The notes under the pieces were generated by a model that saw only the letters and a list, made by a program, of their open reading frames with translations, ran no database searches and was not told the DNA's origin. A program made the position numbers and the translations under genes. DNA of 42,247 bases, taken from positions 1 to 42,247 of the IMG/VR virus record IMGVR_UViG_3300045136_000284. One strand, written 5' to 3'. Origin of the DNA: a virus. Within the stretch, counting starts at the first letter, position 1. Each line of letters starts with the position of its first letter. Shown piece by piece: positions 2,921 to 25,119 of this stretch.

Positions 2921-4555
2921 TTAGACGCACTCCATGGTGAAATTCACGTAGGTGGCCCCAGAGACCGCGAACAGGTTCACGGCAATGATGTCATTGGCAG
3001 CGATGCTGGTGGTAGTGAAATCGCTCAGGTTCGTGCTTCGGACAGCTTGCCCGGAACTCAAGGAAACTCCGCTGGTATTGATGGAGTTGGAGCTGGTAGG
3101 CAACGACGTGCCGCTTGCGACTTTCCAGAGCTTGATGGTGCATGTCCCGGAGTCCGCCAGTATACTCCACGCCACCATTGTCGAGGCAAATGGCATCCGG
3201 AGGTAGACCGTGCGCCCAGCCGAAAGCGTCGAGCCGCCGCCATCGAAGGTGGCACCGAAGCTGCGTCCTGGCGATGGGCCCGTAAACCCAGTCGCCCCAG
3301 TGTAACCGGTGTAGCCAGTGACCTGCGGGCCTGTGTACCCAGTGTAGCCAGTTGAGCCAGTCGGCCCAATCGGACCAGTGGCTCCGATGAGCCCCGTGTA
3401 GCCTGTCGTCCCGGTGTAACCCGTGTAGCCAGTGAAGTTCCCGGGGCCCGTGTAGCCCGTTGGGCCGAGCGCCCCCTGCGGCCCAGTGTAGCCCGTGTAC
3501 CCGGTTCGCCCAGTATAGCCTGTGTACCCGGTATAGCCCGTGAAGTTCCCTGGGCCAGTGTAGCCCGTCGGGCCTGTCGGGCCGGTCTCACCGGTGTAGC
3601 CCGTGTAGCCACGCGGCCCGATGTAGCCCGTGTAGCCGGTGGCCCCAGTGACTGCCGGCCCAGTGTATCCGGTGTAGCCCGTAGCGCCCGTAGCCGAAGC
3701 TGAGCCTTCCGGCCCAGTGTAGCCCGTGTAGCCAGTCGCGCCGGTGTAGCCCGTTGCTCCCGTGGCAGCCGCAGCGCCCGCTGGCCCCGTGTAGCCGGTA
3801 AACCCAGTGAAGCCAGTGTACCCGGTGACTTCTGGGCCAGTGTAGCCAGTGTACCCGGTGTACCCAGTCGGCCCAGTGACCTCCGGGCCAGTGTAGCCAG
3901 TTGCTCCCGTGGGGCCTTGCGGTCCGGTGTAGCCCGTCGGACCGGTAGCGCCAGTAGCTGCGGCAGCGCCTTCCGGGCCCGTGTAGCCGGTTCCGCCCGT
4001 TGCCCCAGTCGGGCCAGTGTAGCCCGTTGGCCCAGTGATGTTCGGCCCGGTATAGCCAGTCGATCCAGTTGGGCCGGTGTAGCCGGTCATGCCACGCGGC
4101 CCAGTGTAGCCCGTCGGACCAGTGTGCCCATAAGGCCCGGTTTCTCCGCGTGCACCGGTGTAGCCGGTTGGCCCCGTGGCGCCCATCGGTCCGGTGTAGC
4201 CTGTTGGACCAGTCGGCCCAGCGGCTTCCGTGAGCAAATCGGCGATGGTCTTGGCCGTAAGCCCCGCCATCAGGTAGTAGGCTTTTCCCGAAGTGGACTT
4301 GTTCGTAGGGGCAGTGCCTTCCTGGCCACGAGTGACAGTTAGATCGTTGCCTACGATGTTCGTCACTCGGACGATCTCAGCGTTGGGATCGTCGGCTGGA
4401 TCAGGGTAGTCAGTCGCGTTCCACCATGTGGCGTTGAACGGCGGCGTCGGGAAGCGGCTTGCTTGGCCGGAGTAGACCGTCACCAGCGTGGCTACTGCCG
4501 AGTAGTAGCCGAGCACCCGCGCCTTGGCGAAGTTCTTTACCTGGTCGATCGGCAT
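2921..4555 (-). CDS. Collagen-like tail fibre protein
   Basis: The protein has 544 residues. Residues 1-110 form a globular N-terminal domain containing the phrase VTRGQEGT, common in phage tail proteins. Residues about 110-430 are almost continuous Gly-X-Y triplets, dominated by GPT, GYT and GAT, with short breaks such as AAAATGATG and PEVTGYTG. Residues about 430-544 form a non-repetitive beta-rich head ending NFTMECV. Collagen-like stalks between an anchor and a C-terminal knob are well known in phage fibres and support a trimer. Frequent GYT triplets are unusual, since large aromatics in the X position weaken collagen. The ATG shares one base with the preceding TGA. The DNA of the stalk is itself a long imperfect repeat. 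Confidence 0.85.
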
Positions 4556-8000: not shown

Positions 8001-8390
8001 CCAGCGCTCCAAAACCGGGCCGAGCTGCGCAGCGTAGATCTCGGAAGAGCCGCTGCTAGGGACGATCGCCAATGGGTCGCCGGCCAGCCGGTAAACGTAG
8101 TTCCCAGCTCCGATGTAGAAGTAGTTGTAGTCCGGGTCCGGCTGGTTGGTGTAGAGCTTGAACAGGCTGTGGATGAAATAGATCAGCCCGGTTTCGCCTT
8201 CGATGCCGCCAGGGGTGAGAACGCGGTAGCCATTGCGGCTGCGCAGTGCCCCTTCGCGCCAGGCGATGAAATTCACCAGGCGCATGTACTGGCCGGCGGC
8301 CAGCATCGCTGGGTCGATCTTCTGGATCTCTCCGGCGTTGCCGAAGGGATACACCAGCGACTGGTAAGGCTGCGGCTGATTCAGCGGCAT
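5013..8390 (-). CDS. Large virion structural protein, probable tail hub/tubular protein
   Basis: With 1125 residues this is the largest protein here. The N-terminus (QKIDPAMLAAGQYMRLVNFIAWREGALRSRNGYR) resembles the start of phage beta-propeller tail or stopper proteins, in which a strand carrying an R-x-GYR-type motif opens the domain. Aromatic and Gly repeats follow through residues 1-600 and beta-sandwich-like repeats make up the second half, which contains several similar units with W and F at regular places. By order (adaptors, holin, this protein, fibre, spike) it corresponds to the tail tubular B or P22 gp10-like component of short tails. There is no signal peptide or membrane segment. 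The function is inferred from size, composition and position. Confidence 0.65.
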   Translation of the reverse strand: MPLNQPQPYQSLVYPFGNAGEIQKIDPAMLAAGQYMRLVNFIAWREGALRSRNGYRVLTPGGIEGETGLIYFIHSLFKLYTNQPDPDYNYFYIGAGNYVYRLAGDPLAIVPSSGSSEIYAAQLGPVLERWTGLAYKKGFTGRPYFYLASSTKMLKDQLKDTPSKDYELMSNWGIDRPPWPAQAVGWPGGNLKSLYAKYSYVYTLRNPITGHESNPSPLMLDDFCVETDPDGGNIEVWARPESPDPLGIGRIDPQTGGMWDVVLYRAGGSFSDGLYRRVTILNSAHATPDGYCYFVDNVPDEDIINNPIAEFDNDRPVSSVLPTPFVAMIVGYGVLTGPAPGSSIIGQVEVELDVHTGMGDGQSLEDVLAPGTTILVGQGTDHEEICVVQTVTNGISPPRFVTVFQKDHAAQERVQTVRRANMPCRYAAQAFGCVFLAGDKNNPNTLYKSKPNRPESFPAVVNEVDGSPGAIEVGSSSDPIMNITEFGGVLLCLNKSKIYAVTVYNGAMQAPAETPAQRGLAAPWGWCKANNALFYISYDGVYSFSGGAAVKHSQAIDHIFKGEYSNGFYPISFSEEIGPEGISDLERILMWFYQDDVFLAYRDTDGEMRRIRYSTREDRWSSEDVVVDAVVTEPDTGRVIFASRKATYGTLNQDNLPVTPDAPYTTDGASSASQNDGKEIDARLKLGWMYMGQPAMQKHFGDMVLELENQETDVIVDVFYDFSETAEERFTVEAQPDRGRYRIPLTLNCGLGREAYAINVEIQAKGKRPVALYTLTFHFLFLEEIQRGRASDWDNLGYPHDKRLTQLSLEYDSVGHDVDLNLDITYGVMGRQRAMAVQTFRLLNDASTSSTGPLRVRTTFPIDLDQPVKLVRLRPSATYTDFKTWVYHFDFIQYPPDQVLFTEWEDLGWPCEKLLRELILDIDTGGVVCTLTIEADGIPKRTFQVKTNWDTRHQIITLNEPGQEELIGKLFRLKLTPGTNGKSQLFGHSFNAVRLPCVQTFWSSYEQTFGYNGFKFLKQVWLQYDSCAPVKFRVLTDNRNLLYEVELPQHPYRDVERVYIPVASDEGVLNKSRVYGFELISLDPCCGFRHYADASRVEWMPVGADMRQGYQQFPLMSAMERTQML

Positions 8391-8399
8391 GGTCCCGGA

Positions 8400-8705
8400 C
8401 TAGCTCGCTTTCTTAACAGCTCCTTTGTAGACCAGCTCCTGAAGCACGAATTGCACCAGCCAGCTCCACAACAGGCTCAGGATCGAAGCTAGGCTCAATC
8501 CGGTAATCGTCAACGTGCCAGAAGCTGGATCAAACTGCGTCTGAATGCCCACCGTGGCGAGCGCCGCCAGCAACGCCGACAGCAAGCGGTTCAACCGGTC
8601 GGTGGACGCCGTGATCCACTTCAACCGAGGCTGCGCTTTTAGCCATTCGATGATGTACACCGCCACGCCAGCGGCGCCGATTTGACTTCCAAACAGGTCG
8701 TTCAT
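8400..8705 (-). CDS. Putative holin (small membrane protein)
   Basis: The protein has 101 residues with hydrophobic stretches at about 8-22 (AGVAVYIIEWL), 40-56 (RLLSALLAALATVGI) and 69-92 (GLSLASILSLLWSWLVQFVLQEL), and a basic tail ending KGAVKKAS. Size, two to three membrane segments and the charged C-terminus fit a holin, which would time release of the endolysin through the inner membrane. The endolysin is at 27959-28483, far away, so this is not a classic lysis cassette. A membrane-associated virion protein is an alternative. The start overlaps the stop of the upstream gene. Confidence 0.55.
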   Translation of the reverse strand: MNDLFGSQIGAAGVAVYIIEWLKAQPRLKWITASTDRLNRLLSALLAALATVGIQTQFDPASGTLTITGLSLASILSLLWSWLVQFVLQELVYKGAVKKAS

Positions 8706-13095: not shown

Positions 13096-14067
13096 TCAGA
13101 ACAGCGTGGACGAGGTCAGCTTGAAGCACAAACGCGCCAACGGGACCGTCAGCGTGTTGCCGCACAAGAACTGCCCGGCGGTGTCGATGCCAAGCTGGGT
13201 GCCCTTGAACCCGGTGAACCCGAAGTTGAACAGCGGATTCACACTGAAGTACCACTCAACCGCCTGGGAGTTGATGCCCCACATGCGGCCGCTGGTGCCC
13301 GTCGGGCAATAGGGGTCCAGAACCGCCTCGGCGCCGTTCACCCGAACCGTCTGGAAGCCAGCCTGCGCGACATCCGATTCCCGATCGAGGTTCTGCTGCA
13401 TCGGCTGGAGCGAATTCCAGATCAGATCCCAGCCGTTACGGGAACACACGATCATGTCCACGCGCCGGTTGCCGTTCCAGGTTTGGGTAATGGCCCGGTT
13501 CAAGGCCGACAGGCTGAACGTGGTCAGGTTGGCCACGTAGGCGTTCATGCCTTTCACCGTGCCCGGCGGGGCGATGTCCGCACGAGTGATTCCGCCGATG
13601 GTGGTGTAGGTGTTGCCATCGTCGATCCACTCCTCGAACCCCACCAGGTTGCGAGTCCGCCCGCCGGCAGTGGACAGGTACATGTCCGTCGCCAGCATCT
13701 CCGCCATCGCCGCCGTGGCGTTCGCAAACTTGGCATTGATCTCCTTGAACACCGCCTCGGGCCCGTCGTTGGACATCGCATTGAACCCGATCAGCGGAAC
13801 GTTCACCAGGTACAGCTTCATCGGCGTTTGCAACGCCGTTTCGGTCACCCGTACGTCCGGAGGCGCACCCTCTCCAGGGCCAACTGCCCCGCCCGCCAGC
13901 TTGCCGACGATCAGCGGCTGCTGGACGAGTAAGCCGCCTCGGAATTGGTCTCGGCGCTTGGTCGAAAGCCGCACAAAAACCGGACTTTCGAAGTACACCG
14001 TATCCCGCAACTTCGGCTCAATGAAGTTGTGGGTGTAAGCGTTGATGCCCTGAAGGGGCAGTGCCAT
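13096..14067 (-). CDS. Major capsid protein (probable HK97 fold)
   Basis: The protein has 323 residues. The N-terminus is ALPLQGINAYTHNFIEPKLR and the protein contains IGFNAMSNDGPEAVFKEINA, a phrase typical of capsid proteins in this class, followed by a long spine-helix-like region with repeated Ala and Met and a C-terminal beta-rich part (LTVPLARLCFKLTSSTLF). It follows a coiled-coil scaffold candidate, as usual for short-tailed phage head genes. GGAGGAAC lies before the ATG. The HK97 fold is inferred from order, size and pattern. Confidence 0.75.
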   Translation of the reverse strand: MALPLQGINAYTHNFIEPKLRDTVYFESPVFVRLSTKRRDQFRGGLLVQQPLIVGKLAGGAVGPGEGAPPDVRVTETALQTPMKLYLVNVPLIGFNAMSNDGPEAVFKEINAKFANATAAMAEMLATDMYLSTAGGRTRNLVGFEEWIDDGNTYTTIGGITRADIAPPGTVKGMNAYVANLTTFSLSALNRAITQTWNGNRRVDMIVCSRNGWDLIWNSLQPMQQNLDRESDVAQAGFQTVRVNGAEAVLDPYCPTGTSGRMWGINSQAVEWYFSVNPLFNFGFTGFKGTQLGIDTAGQFLCGNTLTVPLARLCFKLTSSTLF

Positions 14068-14084: not shown

Positions 14085-14882
14085 CTACTGCGTCAAGATC
14101 CCGCGCTTGAGCGCGTCAACCCCAATCCGCGCCAGTTCGGGATCTGTTAAGCTCAAACCTTTCGTTTTCTCCGCCAGCTCCTGCGGAATCTCAGCCTTGC
14201 TCACTCCGGGATGGGTTACCCCGATGATCCCGCCAGTGTTGTCCGTCGGAAGCCCCGCAGTCGCCATCGCCAACTCTTGCCGCGCCTTCTCCATGCCACG
14301 CTGCTCCGCCGCCCGCAGCTCTTCCTCATGCTTCTTAGCGGCGAGCTCAGCGCGCTTAGGCGCCACCATCTGCTCGTAAGCCAGCTTGGCGTCCCGCAGC
14401 CCGGTCTTCACCATGAACTGGTACAGCTCCGAGGGGTCCAGCGGCTGGCCAAACTCGTCCTTGTGCTGGAATCCCAAGGTGTAGACCTGGGAATAGAAGT
14501 TCTGCATCCCAGCCAGGATCTGGTCGTTCTGCTGCTGAATCGCCCGTAAGCGCTCATCCAGCAGCCGCTGCACCTCTGCCTGGGTCACCATGCCTGCTTT
14601 CCTAGCCTGTTCCAAAATCTCACTGGCTTCCGGAGCACTGAAATCCTGCGGGTTGGCTTGCAGCTCCTGGAGGCGCAGCCGAGCTGCTTCCAGCTCCTGG
14701 CGTGCCTCCCATTCGCTTTTGGTCATGCCATGTTGCTCGTCCCAGTTGTCTCGATACCAAGCGGCGTAGTCCAATGCGGCCTTTTCGAGCTTCTCCATGC
14801 TTTCCTTCAGCGATGGATATTTCTCGATTACGGCTCGGTCGTTCTCGTCTACCTTTGCGAGGAGTTCGTCAAAGATTCCCAT
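14085..14882 (-). CDS. Capsid scaffolding protein
   Basis: The protein has 265 residues, highly charged and rich in Glu, Lys, Gln and Ala. It has long amphipathic helices at about 20-95 (KESMEKLEKAALDYAAW, then EARQELEAARLRLQELQ), another at 97-125, and a helical stretch at 175-215. The C-terminus is short and basic-acidic mixed. Placement immediately before the major capsid gene and the coiled-coil character are the classic signs of a scaffold that guides head assembly and leaves before DNA packaging. No protease gene is visible nearby. Confidence 0.75.
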   Translation of the reverse strand: MGIFDELLAKVDENDRAVIEKYPSLKESMEKLEKAALDYAAWYRDNWDEQHGMTKSEWEARQELEAARLRLQELQANPQDFSAPEASEILEQARKAGMVTQAEVQRLLDERLRAIQQQNDQILAGMQNFYSQVYTLGFQHKDEFGQPLDPSELYQFMVKTGLRDAKLAYEQMVAPKRAELAAKKHEEELRAAEQRGMEKARQELAMATAGLPTDNTGGIIGVTHPGVSKAEIPQELAEKTKGLSLTDPELARIGVDALKRGILTQ

Positions 14883-15300: not shown

Positions 15301-15543
15301 TTAGGGAGTCTTGCTGTCGTAGGGCGTCACCGGGTTCTTGCCGATTTTAACCCCAGCGCCGCCAACCATGTCGATTCCAGAGTCGCTGCCCGATTTCTGA
15401 ACAGGGCTAGCCGGCGCCCAGGAGGCGTTCACCCCAGCGCCGCCAACCATGTCGATCTCCGTAGACCCGCCAGGCTGCTGTTGGGGGCTTACCCCCATCC
15501 GCCCCATCTTTTGCTGCCCACCGACCATTTCAATGTCGGCCAT
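15301..15543 (-). CDS. Small protein with IDMVGG repeats
   Basis: I choose the ATG at 15543, with AGGAGG six bases upstream. A start at 15576 is weaker. The 80 residues contain three copies of a short unit: IEMVGGQQK, IDMVGGAGVNA and IDMVGGAGVKI, separated by about 30 and 28 residues. Otherwise it is Gly/Ser/Gln rich and likely unstructured. It is the first gene after the promoter at 15610-15581. Repeated identical short motifs suggest a linear binding motif for a multivalent partner, for example a capsid or scaffold surface. That is inference. Confidence 0.6.
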   Translation of the reverse strand: MADIEMVGGQQKMGRMGVSPQQQPGGSTEIDMVGGAGVNASWAPASPVQKSGSDSGIDMVGGAGVKIGKNPVTPYDSKTP

Positions 15544-15556
15544 CCGAGTCCTCCTA

Positions 15557-15574
15557 GAGGGGTCAATGCCCCTC
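15557..15574 (-). other. 5' untranslated hairpin
   Basis: On the minus strand GAGGGG and CCCCTC pair around a 6-base loop (plus strand 15557-15562 and 15569-15574), right before the SD of the IDMVGG gene. It is positioned at the predicted 5' end of the transcript from the promoter at 15610-15581. A 5' hairpin can protect an mRNA from decay or affect start access. It is not followed by a T run, so it is not a terminator. Confidence 0.5.
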
Positions 15575-15580
15575 AAGTAG

Positions 15581-15610
15581 ACATTACGATATTAGCGCAA
15601 CCCATGTCAA
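15581..15610 (-). promoter_or_regulatory. Promoter of the head operon
   Basis: On the minus strand there is a perfect -35 hexamer TTGACA (15610-15605), an 18-base spacer and the -10 TAATGT (15586-15581). The predicted start is near 15574, ahead of the IDMVGG, Pro-rich, scaffold and capsid genes. It lies in a 140-base gap after bacterioferritin. The -10 match is only partial. Confidence 0.6.
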
Positions 15611-15639
15611 CAAACTTGCCTTACTGCTCAACAAATTGC
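15607..15639 (-). promoter_or_regulatory. Tandem direct repeats at the head promoter
   Basis: Two near-identical segments, GCAAGTTTGTTGA (15619-15607) and GCAATTTGTTGA (15639-15628) on the minus strand, start 21 bases apart, which is two helical turns. The proximal copy runs into the -35 element. An inverted repeat GCTCA-TGT-TGAGC lies just beyond (15648-15660). Such spacing is typical of activator or repressor binding sites. The binding protein is unknown. Confidence 0.5.
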
Positions 15640-15683
15640 AGGCGGAAGCTCATGTTGAGCGTCGATTTGGCCTGTTTACGCTT

Positions 15684-16157
15684 TCAGGATGCGCTGCTTA
15701 GCGAAATGATCCAGTTCTGGTAACCAGCCAGGTCGATCAGGCTGAGCTGGCTCTCCAGGTAGTTGACGTGCCCTTCCTCGTCCTGGAGCAGGTCTTCGAA
15801 CAGCTCTCGGCTGCCCGTGTCCCCGACCTTCTGGCATAGATCCACGGCATCGGAGTACTTCGCCACAGCTTCGAGTTCCAGCTTCAGGTTTTCCTCAAGC
15901 TGCTCTCGGGCGTCCTTGCCTGGGACGACATCCACCGCCAACCCAAGCTTCGGAGTCCCTTCCAGGAACACGATGCGCTCCATGAGCCGCTCGGCGTGTT
16001 TCATCTCTTCGATGGCTTCCCGCTTGGTCGCCGCGCTCAACTTCCCAAGTCCCCAGTTGGCCTGTAGCTCGGCGTGCAGCATGTACTGCATGATGGCTTG
16101 CACCTCCGAACTCAGCGCCTCGTTCAAGACTTGAATGACCTTCCCGTCGCCTTTCAT
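15684..16157 (-). CDS. bfr: Bacterioferritin
   Basis: The protein has 157 residues, the full length of the family, beginning MKGDGKVIQVLN as in bacterial bacterioferritins. Ferroxidase ligands fall at the expected places: E18, E51, H54, E94, E127 and H130. Met52, the haem ligand between subunits, is also present in EEMKHAER. The helical plan with LFEDLLQDEEGH near the C-terminus is intact. The family forms a 24-subunit shell that oxidises and stores iron, with haem at two-fold interfaces. Finding it in a phage structural operon, coupled by ATGA to an upstream zinc-ribbon-like gene, is unusual. It is probably expressed late. It may manage host iron or protect against oxidative stress, but a structural role cannot be excluded. 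Confidence 0.93.
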   Translation of the reverse strand: MKGDGKVIQVLNEALSSEVQAIMQYMLHAELQANWGLGKLSAATKREAIEEMKHAERLMERIVFLEGTPKLGLAVDVVPGKDAREQLEENLKLELEAVAKYSDAVDLCQKVGDTGSRELFEDLLQDEEGHVNYLESQLSLIDLAGYQNWIISLSSAS

Positions 16158-16363
16158 GCTTTCTTCCCTCCCTTTCGATTGGTATCGCCAGCGGCGCTAG
16201 CCGGCCGGTGGCCGATGTGGAACCCCTGGCAGTGCGGACAGTAGTAAGCCTCGAAGTGGCGCCGCGTGGTCTTGGAAGCGATTTGCGCCGCCAGCTCCGC
16301 CGCCTGCTCGCTCGGGTACTTCCTTCTGCCAGGGCACACCGCTGGCTTCCCACAACAGGACAT
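16154..16363 (-). CDS. Small Cys/His protein
   Basis: The protein has 69 residues, with two Cys near the N-terminus (MSCCGKPAVC), a helical middle (QAAELAAQIASK) and YYCPHCQGFHIGH, a CxxC followed by His residues. It is likely a small zinc-binding protein of the kind common in phages. The start is coupled to the end of the glycosyltransferase gene (TGATG) with GGAGGAG upstream, and the stop overlaps the ATG of bacterioferritin. A functional link to iron is possible from position only. Confidence 0.7.
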   Translation of the reverse strand: MSCCGKPAVCPGRRKYPSEQAAELAAQIASKTTRRHFEAYYCPHCQGFHIGHRPASAAGDTNRKGGKKA

Positions 16364-19308
16364 CAGTCGTCTCCTCCCGCCCAGGATTTCATAAAGTGAT
16401 GATACGCAATGGTTTTCTCGGTGAAGGTGGTCTTGTGCGTCTGGTGGTTGAACGGGAAAAACACGCTGGGTTCTACCACCAGGATGTCCTGGTCGCCTTC
16501 GGCGATCGAGGCGTCCACCTCGCGCGAGAAGATCTCCATGCCATTCTCGAACACCTTGTCATCTTCAGGGTCGGCTTGCTCCATCCGCTGAAGCACACGT
16601 CCGAGAGTCGGATGTCCAGGGACCGCCCCGATGACGCTGTTGGCGATGAAGCCGTTTTCCTCTCTGGCGACGAGCATCGACGGGACCAACAGCGAGTGGG
16701 GTATCTCCGTCAGCAGCTCCATGTCAGCGTCTAGGTAAACCCCGCCATTGCGCTGCAACTCCAGCAGCCGCAACCGGTCAGCCGCCTTGACCCATCGTTT
16801 GGCCTCAACCGCCCGTCGGAAATAGGCATCCTCGATCCAGCGAGTGTTGTCCAGGGTCAGCAGTCTGTACTCCCAGCCCTTCAGCCGCTCCCGATGCGAG
16901 CTTAGGCACACTTTGACCAGCTCCGGCGGCTCTTCCCCGAGCCAGATGGAGAATGCCCGTCGCGGGATTTTGCGCGGCCGCATGTCCACTTCGATGTCCA
17001 GCCCAAGCTGCTCTGCGCGCTGGCGAAGCAGCGCCCGGTCTCGCTCCACCAGCTCCGGCTGCCAACCTACTCGGTAGGTTTCGTCCAGCTCTTTGCCTGT
17101 AACGCTGAAGTGATGGTGGTTGATCCGCGCCTGCTCGCACCAAACGTACCGGCGAAGCTTGCGGCAACGCGCGGTGAGCTCATTGTCACATCCGACATGA
17201 TGGTAGCCAGTGTGGAAAAACTCGCCATCAAGCAATGGCAGCAGCGCCTTGCCCGCTAGCCAATGGGTTGCCACCTGCCCGCTGGTGTAGATCCCGTCAT
17301 TGAGTCCGATCAGGCCGTCGTAGGCCGGGAAGTGGCGCAGCATGGCGTGCACAGCCTCCAGCAGGAAGCCGTGCTGAGGCTCGCAGTCCGTCCCCAGGTA
17401 CATGACCAGCTCGCCTCGGGCCCGGGCTACGCCGCGCTGGACCAGGCGCGGCACGCCTTGATTGTTCGGCGGCCAGTCGTCCACCTCCACCAGGATCTCG
17501 TACAATGGCCAGCCGGCGTTGGTTTCGATCAGGCTGATGAGCCGCTGAAGCTGCTCTTCGCGCCCTAGCGTCGGGATGACGATGCTCACAAGCGGCTCTT
17601 TCACGTAGCGATACCAGATGGTTTTGTGCTTTCCGACTTGGCCGAATCGCTCCGTGACCGCGCGGCGCACCCCGGGCCACTCTGGCGCGAAGTCGTGCCC
17701 AGCAATCAGAATGCGCGCCTTGGGCAGCCATGCCTCGATGTCCGCTTTGACATCCTCGTAGGTGTGCCCGGCGTCGATGAACACCATGTCTACGCTGTGG
17801 TCGTCGAAGCGCTCTGCGGCTTCGAGCGAACCCATGCGCAGAACATGCAAGTTGTTCAATTCCTTGGCGTTATTCAGGAACTGGTGATAGATGTTGTCCG
17901 GGTTTGCGGCTTCCGCATGCTGCACCTCTTCGCCTTTGGAGCCGCGAAAATGGTCTACCGCCCAAACCTCGCCCCGATGACATCCGGAAGCAATGGCGTG
18001 AGTCGAACGCCCTTTCCATGAGCCGACTTCGACCACGCTTTGCATACGCTCCGCAGTTTCGTACAGCCACAGCAGTTCCGGGTAGAGCATCCAGCCATCG
18101 ATTAAGCGATCAGCATATGGGAAGTAGTACTTCGTGTGCTCCAGGTAGGTCGCGTTGAAGGGATTCCACTCCAGGCACTTCAGCAGGTCCTCCTGGGCGC
18201 CTTGAATATTGCCAAGCCAGCCACGCCCCCAGTAGCGGAAAGCATGCGGCTCATCGCGGTACTGTGCCACCAGGTTGGCATAGAAAGCGTGCCAAGGGAT
18301 CTCCATTGCTGCTGCGGCAAAGGCCGCGACCGCTGTCGCTTGCCGGTTGTGCTGATAGAAGCCCGCCAGCCGCAACAGCGCCTCGCGGCGCGTCGGATCG
18401 GTGTGGAAGGCGCGGAAGTACCACTCGGCCTGCTCGTCTGGTCGCCCTAGGCCGCCCAGGCAATCCCCCAGGTAGATCATGCTCTGCGCCTTCTCGGCTT
18501 TCCAGCGGTCCATGGCAATGTGCCGCTGAAGCACTTGCACAGCACTGGCGTATCGCCGGGTGTAGAGCAGCTCCCGGCCCAGGTAGTGCATGTTGCGGTC
18601 ATTGTCCGGGTGCTTGTAGACCTCCCAGCACAGCCCAGGCAGGTAGTGGCTGCGCGGCTTGGTGGGGTCCTGCCAGTGCTCGATCTTGAGCACGTTTTCC
18701 GGAAGCTGAGTTCGCCGGATCTCCGCCTGCGGATCAATCGGCTGAAGCACCTCGTGGATGACGCACTCTGGGTTCCAGCGCAGCAATCGCCGGTCGTACA
18801 TCTTGCATTGCAGGAACTGCACCGCCGGCCGCCCCATCGCATCGTGCGCGTAGACAAACAAGAACTCCAACTGCCCGTAGCCTTCGTCGATGTAGCGGTT
18901 CACCGCGTCGATGTCCAGCGCGGTGTACTCCTCATCGCAATCTGGCATCGACACGATGTCGTTGCTGGCAAGCGAGGCAGCGTAATTGCGGGCATCGGCG
19001 TAGCAGAAAAACCGATCCCCAGCGGCGACCACCGGCGGATCGGGCACCACCACAAACTCGCGGTTGATAGCCTCCGCCAGCTTCGCGTCAATCTCGGTCA
19101 CGAACCTGGCGCCGACCTCATCGACTTTGCACCCATGCGCACGGGCAACCTCAGGGGTGCCATCGGTTGACCCGGTGTCCACCAGCACCACCTCGCCGCC
19201 ACGGGCCTGAAACTCGCGCAGGGAGCGCATCAGGCGCGGCAGCGTCTTCGCTTCATTCTTTGCAATCAGGACTACGGAGAATTTCGGTCTGGATGATTGA
19301 TTCGACAT
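16363..19308 (-). CDS. Multi-domain glycosyltransferase/methyltransferase fusion
   Basis: The protein has 981 residues. Residues about 8-210 form a GT2-type glycosyltransferase (FSVVLIAKNEAKTLPRLM, then VDTGSTDGTPEVA, DCDE at 123-126). Residues about 240-400 look like TPR-type helical repeats. Residues about 422-540 form a class I methyltransferase-like domain (VVEVGSWKGRSTHAIA, then FIDAGHTYEDV). Residues about 573-740 carry a second GT2-like fold start (VSIVIPTLGREEQL). Residues about 783-970 match GT32/OCH1-type sugar transferases (RAFSIWLGEEPPELV, then GGVYLDADMEL with DxD 860-862). The likely job is stepwise glycan building or modification of a host or virion surface. Acceptor and sugars are unknown. 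It lies between portal and bacterioferritin. Confidence 0.85.
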   Translation of the reverse strand: MSNQSSRPKFSVVLIAKNEAKTLPRLMRSLREFQARGGEVVLVDTGSTDGTPEVARAHGCKVDEVGARFVTEIDAKLAEAINREFVVVPDPPVVAAGDRFFCYADARNYAASLASNDIVSMPDCDEEYTALDIDAVNRYIDEGYGQLEFLFVYAHDAMGRPAVQFLQCKMYDRRLLRWNPECVIHEVLQPIDPQAEIRRTQLPENVLKIEHWQDPTKPRSHYLPGLCWEVYKHPDNDRNMHYLGRELLYTRRYASAVQVLQRHIAMDRWKAEKAQSMIYLGDCLGGLGRPDEQAEWYFRAFHTDPTRREALLRLAGFYQHNRQATAVAAFAAAAMEIPWHAFYANLVAQYRDEPHAFRYWGRGWLGNIQGAQEDLLKCLEWNPFNATYLEHTKYYFPYADRLIDGWMLYPELLWLYETAERMQSVVEVGSWKGRSTHAIASGCHRGEVWAVDHFRGSKGEEVQHAEAANPDNIYHQFLNNAKELNNLHVLRMGSLEAAERFDDHSVDMVFIDAGHTYEDVKADIEAWLPKARILIAGHDFAPEWPGVRRAVTERFGQVGKHKTIWYRYVKEPLVSIVIPTLGREEQLQRLISLIETNAGWPLYEILVEVDDWPPNNQGVPRLVQRGVARARGELVMYLGTDCEPQHGFLLEAVHAMLRHFPAYDGLIGLNDGIYTSGQVATHWLAGKALLPLLDGEFFHTGYHHVGCDNELTARCRKLRRYVWCEQARINHHHFSVTGKELDETYRVGWQPELVERDRALLRQRAEQLGLDIEVDMRPRKIPRRAFSIWLGEEPPELVKVCLSSHRERLKGWEYRLLTLDNTRWIEDAYFRRAVEAKRWVKAADRLRLLELQRNGGVYLDADMELLTEIPHSLLVPSMLVAREENGFIANSVIGAVPGHPTLGRVLQRMEQADPEDDKVFENGMEIFSREVDASIAEGDQDILVVEPSVFFPFNHQTHKTTFTEKTIAYHHFMKSWAGGDD

Positions 19309-19502: not shown

Positions 19503-21380
19503 TCAGTAAGGATTGCCAGTCCGCTGCCCACGAGTCAATCGCGGGACTTCGCCTTTCCCAATAGCGTCTGGGGCAAGCATCTGGCGCTCCATCGCCAGCT
19601 CTTCTAGGATCTGGTCGATGTCCGGGAACTCCAGAATCTCCAACAGTTTGCGTCGAGGGATGGCATTCAGCCGGTAGAGGCTGATGGCTACCTGCTTGTC
19701 CCGGTCGCGCTTGCCGCCGTGCATGGAGCCGGCCGCCACCTGCACCTTGAAGTTCCGCCAGTGGTCTTCCTTTGGCGAACTCCAAGGCACCATGGAGCCG
19801 GGGTCGTAGTCGAAGTCATGGAAAGTCAAGCCGTCGGCGCCGAGCATGCGCATGCGCTGCGCGCGCGTGTAGTACTGGAAGATGTTGCTCACAAACTGCT
19901 CTGCGGCTTCACGCACAAACGGCTCAATGTGCCGGCTCTGAAGCCGGAAGGCCGTTTGGCTGGTATCGCGGAACTGCTCGATGGTATCGCCGCCAGGGAT
20001 CTGGTTCTTGCGGCTCATCCCGGCAATGTCCAGCGTTCCAGCGTGTCGCTGGAAGGCTTGATCGACACGATCCCAGAAAGCGCCAACGTAGCTAGGCAGC
20101 GGTGGCGGTTGCAGGTAGGTCGCGTGACGCACCGGGTCAGCAGTGGGGTTGAACTTCAACCGGGCCCCAGGCATGTCCTGGTGGAAGCTGCGGAAGCTGG
20201 TGTCGTCCACGGCGCCGTCCACAAAGGCAAACTGCGGCTCCACGGCCCTTCGGCTAAGATCCATCATCCCTGCACCAAGCTCGTTTTTGGCGATTGCCAG
20301 CGGCACAAGGTTGCGGTAGATGGACACCCCGCCATTGCGCCACACTGCCGGCACCAGGATCAGTTGAGCGAATGGGAAGCGCCCATGCCAGAAGCACGAC
20401 GGTCCATCGTAAAGCACCTGCTCGCCGACGACGACGATCAACCGCTTGCGCGGAAACAGCCGCCCGCCAGGCGGAACTCGATACCAGTAGTTATGCTGGT
20501 CGGTTTGCAGGCGCGGGTCCTTGACCAGCACCTCCACCCCGGACTCATTGATGCTCGGGTCGTCGATCCAGAACTCCTCGACCAGGGCTACCGGGAACTG
20601 GCTGGCCCGCTGCGGAGACACGCCGAAGTAGCGCCCTTGCTGCCCAGAGCGAATCGTGGGACTCATCGCGGTGAAGCCATATTCAGGCACCTGATCGGGC
20701 GGAGAGTAGTTGGAGCCTGCGACCGTCCCAGAGCCGATGCTGATCTGGCGCTCCAGGTTGTCCGCAGCCGCGCCGTAGACCTGCTTGATTCGGTGCAACG
20801 GCTTGTAAACGCGGTACAAAACCCCTGAGGAGTCTTGGATGTCCCGCCCAGGCTGAATGGGGAACACGGAGTCCATGCCGGCGGCCAGCACGTGCATCCG
20901 GCCAGGCATACTCGCACCGATCTTCCAGTAGCCGACGCTGAGCAAAGCATGGTCAACGGCTTCCTCCAAGCGCAAGTCCAAGTCCTGCTGCGCCCATTCG
21001 TAGGCGATGATCTTCTTGGCAATCTCGGCTTGCCGCAAGTAGTGCGGGTGGTTGTCCGAGGAGGAGATTTCCGGAGCTGGGCGAATGTCGGTCAATGCGC
21101 ACAGCGCATCGATCCGAGCCGCGAACATGGCGTTATCGAAGTACTTCGACCGGTAGCTGGGCCGGCTGCGCGGCCAGTAGCGCCCTTCCAGCATGTCGAT
21201 GTAGGTCTGGATGTAGGCGAATTCCGGGTTGAGCTTCGCCGTTTCTATGGCTTCCTCGCGTGCAGCGCCGATCCAGCGCCGCACAGAGGCTTGGTAGCCA
21301 TCCGGGAAGTCCATGGTCCCGCTTTTGGTGTTCAGGACAATCGGCGCTCGCGGCGCCATCTCGATCACGTTCGCTGCCAT
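19503..21380 (-). CDS. Portal protein
   Basis: The protein has 625 residues, the usual length of portals in podovirus-like phages. After a helical start it has the paired phrase YWPRSRPSYRSKYFDN, then a long core with typical portal elements: SVGYWKIGASM, FWHGRFPFAQLILVP, the stretch VPLAIAKNELGAGMMDLSRR and a C-terminal helical crown (FREAAEQFVSNIFQYYTRAQR type). It forms the 12-subunit ring at the head vertex through which DNA is packaged. It lies between TerL-side genes and the head genes, as expected. AGAGG precedes the ATG. Confidence 0.75.
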   Translation of the reverse strand: MAANVIEMAPRAPIVLNTKSGTMDFPDGYQASVRRWIGAAREEAIETAKLNPEFAYIQTYIDMLEGRYWPRSRPSYRSKYFDNAMFAARIDALCALTDIRPAPEISSSDNHPHYLRQAEIAKKIIAYEWAQQDLDLRLEEAVDHALLSVGYWKIGASMPGRMHVLAAGMDSVFPIQPGRDIQDSSGVLYRVYKPLHRIKQVYGAAADNLERQISIGSGTVAGSNYSPPDQVPEYGFTAMSPTIRSGQQGRYFGVSPQRASQFPVALVEEFWIDDPSINESGVEVLVKDPRLQTDQHNYWYRVPPGGRLFPRKRLIVVVGEQVLYDGPSCFWHGRFPFAQLILVPAVWRNGGVSIYRNLVPLAIAKNELGAGMMDLSRRAVEPQFAFVDGAVDDTSFRSFHQDMPGARLKFNPTADPVRHATYLQPPPLPSYVGAFWDRVDQAFQRHAGTLDIAGMSRKNQIPGGDTIEQFRDTSQTAFRLQSRHIEPFVREAAEQFVSNIFQYYTRAQRMRMLGADGLTFHDFDYDPGSMVPWSSPKEDHWRNFKVQVAAGSMHGGKRDRDKQVAISLYRLNAIPRRKLLEILEFPDIDQILEELAMERQMLAPDAIGKGEVPRLTRGQRTGNPY

Positions 21381-22297: not shown

Positions 22298-22897
22298 TCA
22301 CTTTTCCCTCAAGATCGCGCTCAGGAAATCGTCCTTGGCCGCCGGACTGCGCGGATCGGACAAGTCCGCCCCGAGGTAACCGCACAGGTCGTCTCCAGTG
22401 AAGTCCTCCTTGCCCAACACCATGGCAATGGCGTCGTACTGCTCCTTGGTCAGAAGAACCTTGTGCGGCTCCTGGGCCACGGTCCCCAGCCAGCCCTGCG
22501 CCAAGGCCCAATCCAGCGTCACGCGCAGGTGGCGCTCCAGGCTGACCCCAGCTCGCTCAGCGCATTCCCGAAGATGCCCTAACCACACCGGGTCAATGCG
22601 CAGCTCCACAACCGTGGTGTCGCCATCACGACTTGCCTGACGCTCCACCGCGCTCACAATCGCTGCTGGGGTGGCATCGGGCAGCGCTTTGCGAATGCGC
22701 TCGGCCATGGCGGCCGGCAGCATGATCCCGCCGGCTAGCTCTTCGTTCACCAGGCGCGTCGCCGCAGCGGCAATTGCGTCAACTACGCTGTCCTGCCCAT
22801 CGCCGCGCAGGCTCTCAGCCTTGTGCGCCTGCTCTTTGCCTAGGGAGATGATCACCGCGAACTCACGTTGCGGCTTGGTACTGGTTTCGGCGGCCAT
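22298..22897 (-). CDS. Hypothetical protein, possible DNA-binding segment
   Basis: The protein has 199 residues with a strong AAAGGAGGT site. The TAA of TerL overlaps its ATG. The N-terminal 70 residues are charged and helical, with an Ala-rich stretch (DAIAAAATRLVNEELAGG). The middle reads TTVVELRIDPVWLGHLRECA, then AGVSLERHLRVTLDWAL, which has the strand-helix-helix character of ribbon-helix-helix proteins. The C-terminal third is acidic. The function is unknown. Confidence 0.6.
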   Translation of the reverse strand: MAAETSTKPQREFAVIISLGKEQAHKAESLRGDGQDSVVDAIAAAATRLVNEELAGGIMLPAAMAERIRKALPDATPAAIVSAVERQASRDGDTTVVELRIDPVWLGHLRECAERAGVSLERHLRVTLDWALAQGWLGTVAQEPHKVLLTKEQYDAIAMVLGKEDFTGDDLCGYLGADLSDPRSPAAKDDFLSAILREK

Positions 22898-25119
22898 TAG
22901 AAAACAACCTCCTTTACGTTGCTGTAGCCCATGCTGGGCTGCTCGTCGGGCAATCTGCCCATGTCTTTGAAGTCAAAGTTCGTGTTCTGCTGTTGATCCC
23001 AGCTCTCATGGCGCCACTTGATCAGGATGCTGCGGCAGCCCTCCAGCGGGCAGCGCTCTGCGCGATTGTACTCGTCGCGGTGCCAGACCAGCCCGCAGCG
23101 CAGGCAACAGGCGGTCCATTTGCCTGTTTGCTGCAAACCGGCAGGATCAGAGTTTGGCAGCTCTCCTGGCCGGCGCCGATCGAGCTGATGCGCCCCAAGT
23201 AGCGCCAGCTCGCAAGCGGTCACGGTGTCATCATGAACGGTCTCATCGTAACCGGCGCCATCCCATGACTCGCGCTTGCCTTTGGTGGAGTTCCCAATCG
23301 TGCCATCCGGGTGGCGGGCGTAGTGGCGCATCTCCCAAGCGAATACCGGGTCGCGCACAATAAGAGAGCCGTCAGCCAGCCATGCGTCCAGTTGCACCCA
23401 GGCGTCCTCCCGGTTGCGCGAGTTCCACACCCAATGAAAGCGAGGCGTCAGAACGCGTTCGGAATCCGGATTCGCCCAGCGGTACAGGTTCGGGTACAGC
23501 AGGTAGTGCCGAAGCTGATCCCCAACCGTCTGGAAGTTGGTGTAATCCACCACGATCAGGGCATTGTTGTACCAGCGGCCGATGGCATCGGCCACCAGCG
23601 CCAAGTCTGTCGGCCGGGTGACGTTGCTGCGGAAGCACGCCACTTGCACATCGGGGTTCGGCGCAACCCCAATGCGGTTCACCCAGATGACCGAGTAATC
23701 GTAGCCGCTGCCCTGCCCGGAAGCCACGTCCACGCCGATGACGTACCGGCAGCCTTCAATGGGCATTTCCCAGACCTTCAAGAAGCGGTTGGTGTCGCCA
23801 ACGTGGCTTTTCTTGCAGCCGGGGCACCAGCACAGCGAGGTCTCTCCGCCGGCGTGCCGGCGAGGGGCATGGAACTTACCGGAGGAGTCCATGAAGCCCA
23901 CCGCCAGCGGTTCGCGCTCCCGCACGGTCTGCGCCACTCGCTCCATGGCCTTGTTGCTGAACAGCGTCTCGGTGATGTACTGGAACGCTTCCTGCGGGTT
24001 GGTAGCCAGAGATTGGCGCATGTCCATCAGAGCGCTTTCTCCAATCGCCTCAGCGTTTTGGCGCTGCTGCCACAGCCAGCGCATCTGCCCCAGACTAAGC
24101 TCGTACGGCCGGTAAATGCCAGTGCTGCAATCCGAGCAGCGGGTGCCATCCAGGCTTTTGCCGCCGAAGTTCGTCGGTCGAATCTGCCGGCAGCCAGAGC
24201 ACATGCACCACTCTTCCGCTGCGCGCGTTTTGACCGCCAGCTCCGGCTCTTCTGGCTTCCAGCCGTCCTCCGGCGGAATGAAGTGGCTCTTGTCGAAATA
24301 GATCGGGAGGAACAGCGGAAACCATGTCGCCACCTCGCCTAATCGCACCTGGCTTTCCCAGAGCCGTTCTAGGAACCGCGCCGAGCGCTTGACGCGGCTT
24401 TCAATGATCGCGCAGGTGGTCGGCTCATCCGGCAGCGCCCAGCGCAGATCGCCGAAGACCAGCGAGCGCGCCTTGGCCTCTTCCATTGACCCTAACTCGC
24501 TGATATGGGCGAAGTTAATGCGGTAGCCCTCGGCCACTCCGGTGTACCTTCCGGCGCTTTGCACCAGGATGCGCGTGTTGAGGCCGGGGTCGCGGGCGCG
24601 AAGCTGCGGGTCGGGATTGATCAGGTGCAGCTCCTCCATGTACTTGCGCGGTCCCATCATCGGCCGGAGCCACCATGGCAGCCGGTCGTAGATGTGCAGG
24701 ATGATGCCAAACAAGGACGCGGCGTGCGACATGTCATAGGAGAGGACTAACGCGTTGGCGTTGGGCTGAAACATTGCGGACCAGGCGATGTACGCCTCGA
24801 CGAACGTCGAGACATACAATTGGCGGGCCTTAATGATGAGCAGCCGTACGCCGCGCCCTTTCTTTTTGAGCTGGTTGATGCACTCCAGCACCAGCTCTTG
24901 AGTGTCCATGAGGCGTAACGGGACGTCCCGCATGTCCTTGGTCGAGATCCAGAAGTAGTTCCGGGCGCAGTACTCGAAGTTGTCCATGCACTTCTGGATC
25001 TCGTCGTGGAGGATCTGCACCTCCTTGGGCGCAAGCAGGGACCAGTCGCACTTCTCCGGCTGATCGAAGTACTCGATCAACTCTGCAATCCCTGGGTCCC
25101 GGCCATGCGGATCAAGCAT
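22897..25119 (-). CDS. terL: Terminase large subunit
   Basis: The protein has 740 residues. The ATPase part holds an arginine-rich P-loop-like segment IIKARQLYVST (97-105), whose Gly is replaced by Tyr, and the Walker B with catalytic Glu in INFAHISELG (E208). The C-terminal nuclease part carries IGVDVASG (D464), VVDYTNFQ (D525) and HDDTVTA (D630/D631). Three Cys clusters, at 305-331, 430-435 and near the C-terminus (CCLRCGLVWHRDEY), look like added zinc ribbons. The enzyme packages DNA into the head and cuts it. It starts inside the end of the small-subunit candidate. The unusual P-loop is noted in the findings. Confidence 0.9.
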   Translation of the reverse strand: MLDPHGRDPGIAELIEYFDQPEKCDWSLLAPKEVQILHDEIQKCMDNFEYCARNYFWISTKDMRDVPLRLMDTQELVLECINQLKKKGRGVRLLIIKARQLYVSTFVEAYIAWSAMFQPNANALVLSYDMSHAASLFGIILHIYDRLPWWLRPMMGPRKYMEELHLINPDPQLRARDPGLNTRILVQSAGRYTGVAEGYRINFAHISELGSMEEAKARSLVFGDLRWALPDEPTTCAIIESRVKRSARFLERLWESQVRLGEVATWFPLFLPIYFDKSHFIPPEDGWKPEEPELAVKTRAAEEWCMCSGCRQIRPTNFGGKSLDGTRCSDCSTGIYRPYELSLGQMRWLWQQRQNAEAIGESALMDMRQSLATNPQEAFQYITETLFSNKAMERVAQTVREREPLAVGFMDSSGKFHAPRRHAGGETSLCWCPGCKKSHVGDTNRFLKVWEMPIEGCRYVIGVDVASGQGSGYDYSVIWVNRIGVAPNPDVQVACFRSNVTRPTDLALVADAIGRWYNNALIVVDYTNFQTVGDQLRHYLLYPNLYRWANPDSERVLTPRFHWVWNSRNREDAWVQLDAWLADGSLIVRDPVFAWEMRHYARHPDGTIGNSTKGKRESWDGAGYDETVHDDTVTACELALLGAHQLDRRRPGELPNSDPAGLQQTGKWTACCLRCGLVWHRDEYNRAERCPLEGCRSILIKWRHESWDQQQNTNFDFKDMGRLPDEQPSMGYSNVKEVVF

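Follow-up and report, generated by a model that had tools for sequence, protein, structure and literature searches.

A bacterioferritin gene in the packaging and head region of a tailed phage, and its recurrence in other phage lineages

The window, meaning the whole stretch of DNA that was analysed, corresponds to a virus record in IMG/VR and is 42,247 bases long. Among its genes is one for a bacterioferritin (Bfr) of 157 amino acids, bfr. The initial annotation had reported an intact bacterioferritin at this position without stating the strand, which is the minus strand. The main features of the region are listed below, where "sister" refers to a related phage described further on.

22897-25119, minus strand: terminase large subunit, from profile matches
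19503-21380, minus strand: portal protein, from a PHROGs match
16363-19308, minus strand: 981-aa multi-domain glycosyltransferase/methyltransferase, the upstream part of the accessory block; sister copy 69% identical
16154-16363, minus strand: small Cys/His gene, 69 aa, phrog_15216-like, with an ATGA overlap with the bfr start; same order in the sister
15684-16157, minus strand: bacterioferritin gene, from a TIGR00754 match, the ferroxidase ligands and haem Met52, and the AlphaFold2/Foldseek fold
15577-15683, minus strand: gap 3' of bfr with a weak promoter-like element, TTGACA-18-TAATGT, aligned with the sister element
15301-15576, minus strand: 91-aa repeat protein, the first gene beyond the gap; kept in the sister
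14085-14882, minus strand: scaffold-like gene, 265 aa, immediately 5' of the capsid gene and named from position and conservation only
13096-14067, minus strand: major capsid protein (phrog_9953, NF033394)

Read along the minus strand, the genes are the terminase, a 199-aa gene, an FmdB-type zinc ribbon, a 98-aa gene, and the portal, followed by the 981-aa protein, the Cys/His gene, bfr, the 91-aa repeat protein, a 127-aa protein, the scaffold-like gene, and the major capsid gene. Thus bfr lies between the portal and glycosyltransferase genes on one side and the scaffold and capsid genes on the other, and its earlier placement within a phage head region is borne out. The 981-aa protein comprises a GT2 part, a beta-1,4-glycosyltransferase (phrog_13126), Methyltransf_24, a second glycosyltransferase part, and a DXD sugar-binding part; a phrog_13126 gene is also found near Bfr in a distant phage, L115. 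The 91-aa protein contains repeated IDMVGG-type motifs, is 69% identical in the sister, and perhaps has a weak likeness in L144. The capsid protein has no match among 50,697 phage records. A collagen-like tail fibre protein is encoded at 2921-4555, minus strand.

The gene itself encodes an ordinary Bfr; it is the place of the gene that is unusual, and recurrent. The protein matches the bfr model TIGR00754 with 159.5 bits, above the curated cut-off of 125.55, and PF00210 with 106.6 bits, while PHROGs contains no family matching it. All six ferroxidase ligands (E18, E51, H54, E94, E127, H130) and the haem ligand M52 are present in the alignment, as the initial annotation had stated, and so is Y25. 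The AlphaFold2 model (mean pLDDT 94.6) has the four-helix ferritin fold with a short fifth helix, and Foldseek matches it to P. aeruginosa BfrB and E. coli Bfr with a TM of 0.96. A 24-mer state and haem loading are predicted. The protein is therefore like bacterial Bfr (TIGR00754; E. coli 1BCF, P. aeruginosa BfrB 3IS7) in length, fold, ferroxidase ligands, and Met52. It differs in the location of its gene, in a phage and next to head genes, in its identity of 41-46% to the solved Bfrs, which align to it across almost the full length, in the lack of an adjacent Bfd gene, and in having a sister without the haem ligand.

The ATGA coupling of bfr to the Cys/His gene, which runs from 16363 to 16154, can be read directly as TCAT at positions 16154-16157 of the plus strand. 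This neighbour was considered as a candidate for Bfd, the [2Fe-2S] protein whose adjacent gene defines a Bfr-Bfd pair, and was rejected because the Bfd models of Pfam and NCBIfam did not match it. By these models bfr has no adjacent Bfd gene.

On its other side, bfr is followed by the gap in which a head promoter had been proposed. In the sister, the corresponding element (TTGACT-18-TATCGT) passes a consensus scan, which partly favours the proposal. The element of the window falls below the threshold of the same scan and was found by alignment with the sister. Given the promoter-like gap after it, bfr probably closes the packaging transcript and stays outside that of the capsid.

Two other records bear on whether the arrangement is real. 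One, from a second sample (IMGVR_UViG_3300044960_000463), is 99.8% identical to the window, and its bfr has no difference at all. The other is the sister phage (IMGVR_UViG_3300005573_000132), whose capsid protein is 86% identical to that of the window and which has a Bfr at the same place, 42% identical to that of the window. The block of glycosyltransferase, Cys/His gene, Bfr, and downstream head genes is common to both phages. The nearest cellular relative of the window Bfr is chromosomal, as would be expected if host DNA had entered the record by contamination or by misassembly, the latter a concern already raised in the initial annotation. Since the arrangement is repeated in a second sample with an identical bfr and in the same slot of the sister, the contig is regarded as genuine, and the probability of such an artefact as negligible.

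The sister Bfr (L006) keeps the six ferroxidase ligands, whereas its haem ligand is replaced (M52I). Together with the loss of M52 from two other viral Bfrs, this means that the description "haem-containing" is not supported for the lineage.

The origin of the viral Bfrs was examined with a tree that contains them together with the Bfrs of two phyla only, Acidobacteriota and Pseudomonadota. The viral sequences are placed among the Bfrs of Acidobacteriota type (support 100/100). Placing them all in one clade is rejected by the AU test, with p 0.003 for seven viral rows and 0.005 for nine. Viral Bfrs that group with the Acidobacteriota type, but not as one clade, point to repeated transfers.

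The window Bfr pairs with one from a Bryobacteraceae contig (54% identity; support 89/88 and 95/97), which has ordinary chromosomal neighbours. The initial annotation had suggested that phylogeny would reveal either a recent transfer or a phage clade. Neither was obtained: a single viral clade is rejected, and the branch of the window Bfr beside the Acidobacteriota chromosomal Bfr is long, so that the transfer was not recent. For the window and sister as a clade the AU test gives p 0.23. Owing to this value, the long branches, and the two-phylum tree, an Acidobacteriota host is a lead and not a finding.

Further viral Bfrs were collected by pattern-based scans of IMG/VR, which are not exhaustive, so that the counts are lower bounds. 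The initial annotation had proposed a survey of other phage genomes for bfr next to a scaffold gene. At least three genomes besides the window and sister carry Bfr within packaging, head, or neck clusters, and such a placement applies to about four viral bfr lineages, a number too small for enrichment significance.

An example is the phage represented by L021 and L122, in which Bfr comes directly after TerL, 5' of the portal and capsid genes. A relative, L120 (TerL 46% identical, capsid 74%), has, directly after TerL, a homologue (35% over 110 residues) of the L122 gene downstream of bfr. Both junctions could be read, and they differ cleanly by one gene, bfr. Because other relatives are without bfr, this difference is probably an insertion in L122 rather than a loss in L120. 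In a second phage, known from two samples (L023/L024), Bfr overlaps the end of the portal gene and is followed by the head protease and capsid. In a third, known from four samples (L115-L118), it lies between the capsid and tail-sheath genes, adjoining glycosyltransferase and methyltransferase genes. Finally, Bfr is found about 3.4 kb before the portal in L022, and outside any clear head module in L018 (a 206-kb record) and L020.

Of 79 loci whose capsid genes are related, only the twin of the window, the sister, and L122 had Bfr within the stretch of sequence covered. Searching 50 records in full yielded three Dps genes and a further, very divergent Bfr (L203). The 50,697 phage records contained no credible phage Bfr, and 99 of them had Dps-like matches. 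The earlier remark that ferritin-like proteins are uncommon in phages is thus correct for Bfr and incorrect for Dps. It appears from these sequences that bfr is rare in phages yet has been acquired repeatedly by different lineages.

Several other matches were set aside. The Bfr of an unverified "Pseudomonas phage Y5" (OQ572407.1, L003) groups with Pseudomonas BfrB and is likely host DNA in the record. Salmonella and Acinetobacter matches come from long records of 134-582 kb that, judging by name and size, look bacterial. The Bfrs of L015-L017 group with Pseudomonadota; that of L015 is at a contig end, and in L016 and L017 the gene lies at the record edge next to an ORF of the kind produced by read-through of a tRNA region, which makes the host flank of a prophage likely. 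Distant Bfr matches (31-35%) also occur in two or three short faecal records named "Bacteriophage sp." that carry no annotation.

The rarity of Bfr in relatives would be expected if a host gene had been caught by chance and were co-expressed with the late transcript without benefit, in a gap between portal and scaffold that tolerates inserts. Comparable gaps of relatives do hold different accessory genes. However, the sister copy is intact, with all six ferroxidase ligands at 42% identity, and the gene has been captured independently several times, while a compact phage genome would be expected to lose useless genes quickly. A gene of no benefit is, on balance, distinctly unlikely.

Residue variation provides information about which activity has been kept. 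Neither the ferroxidase ligands nor M52 vary among the 68 cellular Bfrs in the tree, which form a biased set because they were picked by similarity to the phage proteins. Among nine viral Bfrs, seven have all six ferroxidase ligands; the exceptions are L023 (E18K, H54Q) and L203 (E51 and H54 lost). M52 is kept in six and lost in three (L006, L020, L203), compared with 0/68 in the similarity-biased cellular set (Fisher p about 0.001, by hand). The window and its sister form an informative pair, in which both keep the iron-oxidation ligands and the sister has lost the haem ligand. Where ferroxidase ligands are lost, as in L023 and L203, the cage must act otherwise or is decaying. The L023 protein (8001-8465), present in two samples, keeps the haem Met and is likely ferroxidase-dead. 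In L203 (1477-1938), a phage whose capsid is related, the Bfr gene is flanked by the genes of two large proteins.

In Pseudomonas-type BfrB the contacts to Bfd are L68/E81 (PMC13136788), and the window Bfr has T68/K81 at these positions. Cellular Bfrs of its own branch also carry residues other than L68/E81, so that the argument from contacts is a weak one.

The preferred explanation, with a probability of roughly 55%, is that bfr came from a host and was taken up as an auxiliary gene into the late packaging and head region of a tailed phage, and that it would supply a ferroxidase cage removing Fe2+ and peroxide. As expected of a phage auxiliary metabolic gene, a host-type gene stands within a genuine phage cluster. 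Its most likely role is the taming of free iron and peroxide late in infection. At that stage, Bfr would assemble as its usual 24-subunit cage in the host cytoplasm, where the di-iron centre would oxidise Fe2+ using H2O2 or O2. Iron would be locked away as a ferric core, so that host machinery and phage DNA would suffer less Fenton damage until lysis.

Three observations make this late iron sink the simplest reading: M52I in a sister with its ferroxidase ligands kept, the absence of an adjacent Bfd gene, and the replacement of Pseudomonas-type Bfd contacts in the window. They likewise suggest that Bfd-mediated, haem-dependent iron release is not the selected function, and such release looks dispensable. 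Further support comes from the retention of the six ligands in the sister despite 42% identity and in seven of the nine viral Bfrs, from the conserved block shared with the sister, from the rejection of a single viral clade, from the single-gene insertion in L122 relative to L120, and from the presence of Dps in three related large phages. Phage Dps and Mn-catalase have been proposed to serve oxidative-stress tolerance (PMC8008677), a reasoning also applied to the Dps of Lactobacillus phages (PMC6669764). During infection by another phage, YerA41, the host mounts an oxidative-stress response, its Dps and catalase transcripts rising within 15 min (PMC7354516). Two points stand against the auxiliary role: a position beside head genes could merely mark where accessory genes are tolerated, and the two viral Bfrs L023 and L203 lack ferroxidase ligands.

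Alternatively, the phage Bfr may store iron in iron-poor soil or water and release it with the help of haem, for prolonged host metabolism or iron-requiring enzymes. The presence of M52 in the window Bfr and in six of the nine viral Bfrs is consistent with this. The sister, however, lacks the haem ligand at the same slot, no Bfd gene is adjacent, and stored iron would be of small use in a late, one-way infection. Storage for later release is accordingly seen as unlikely.

Bfr cages might also be incorporated in the head or help to build it, as the initial annotation had suggested in proposing packaging with the virion. This would explain both the placement among packaging, head, or neck genes in several lineages and the loss of ferroxidase ligands from L023 and L203. 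Weak ferritin-fold matches, some with poor rmsd, are also found in proteins named prohead protease. On the other hand, the window protein ends at the normal Bfr end in the alignment, with no targeting extension; most relatives with related capsid genes have no Bfr; a promoter-like gap separates bfr from the capsid transcript; and in L018 the gene is away from head genes. Carriage in the virion or a part in assembly is very unlikely. A broader version, in which unrelated phages repeatedly recruit Bfr into head modules so that an iron- or haem-handling cage could be delivered to the next host, some copies shedding haem or ferroxidase activity and leaving a structural role, is less probable still. 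The prohead protease entries with these matches, A0A6J7WPK9, A0A6J7WIS1, and A0A6J7XDU5 in BFVD, are possible ferritin-domain fusions.

A comparable arrangement is known from encapsulins with ferritin-like cargo (EncB, FLP; PMC8346489, PMC6668986), where the gene for an HK97-fold shell is also near a ferritin-like gene. Encapsulin cargo carries a C-terminal targeting peptide, and the shell occurs without packaging or tail genes. In contrast, the window Bfr has no cargo tail and scores far below the cut-off of the EncB model, and it stands near a genuine phage capsid gene accompanied by genes for terminase, portal, and tail fibre.

In the literature, virus-encoded bfr was found published once, in a putative Bathyarchaeia virus from Vrana Lake sediment, where it was proposed to act in iron metabolism as an auxiliary gene kept by purifying selection (PMC10904782). 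That gene is Thermoproteota-derived, whereas the gene of the window, of Acidobacteriota type, sits among the head and packaging genes of a tailed phage that has a syntenic sister. The new elements are the syntenic pair in tailed phages, the repeated and independent capture in late clusters, and the loss of the haem ligand with ferroxidase ligands kept. Virus-encoded bfr is thereby widened from a single archaeal-virus case to several tailed-phage lineages. Copies that have lost haem and kept ferroxidase would provide a natural test of which half of the Bfr chemistry a phage needs, the oxidation of iron or its haem-driven release. How iron and peroxide are controlled in phage infection has been little explored.

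The Dps and Mn-catalase of gut phages and the Dps of Lactobacillus phages are likewise iron and peroxide proteins of the ferritin superfamily acquired by phages, with the same proposed stress role, although Dps belongs to a different family from Bfr and is the commoner of the two in phage records. The three Dps genes found here (L200, L201, L202) come from phages of about 100 kb whose capsid proteins are related. Dps adjoins what reads as an amidase-like gene in L200 and L201.
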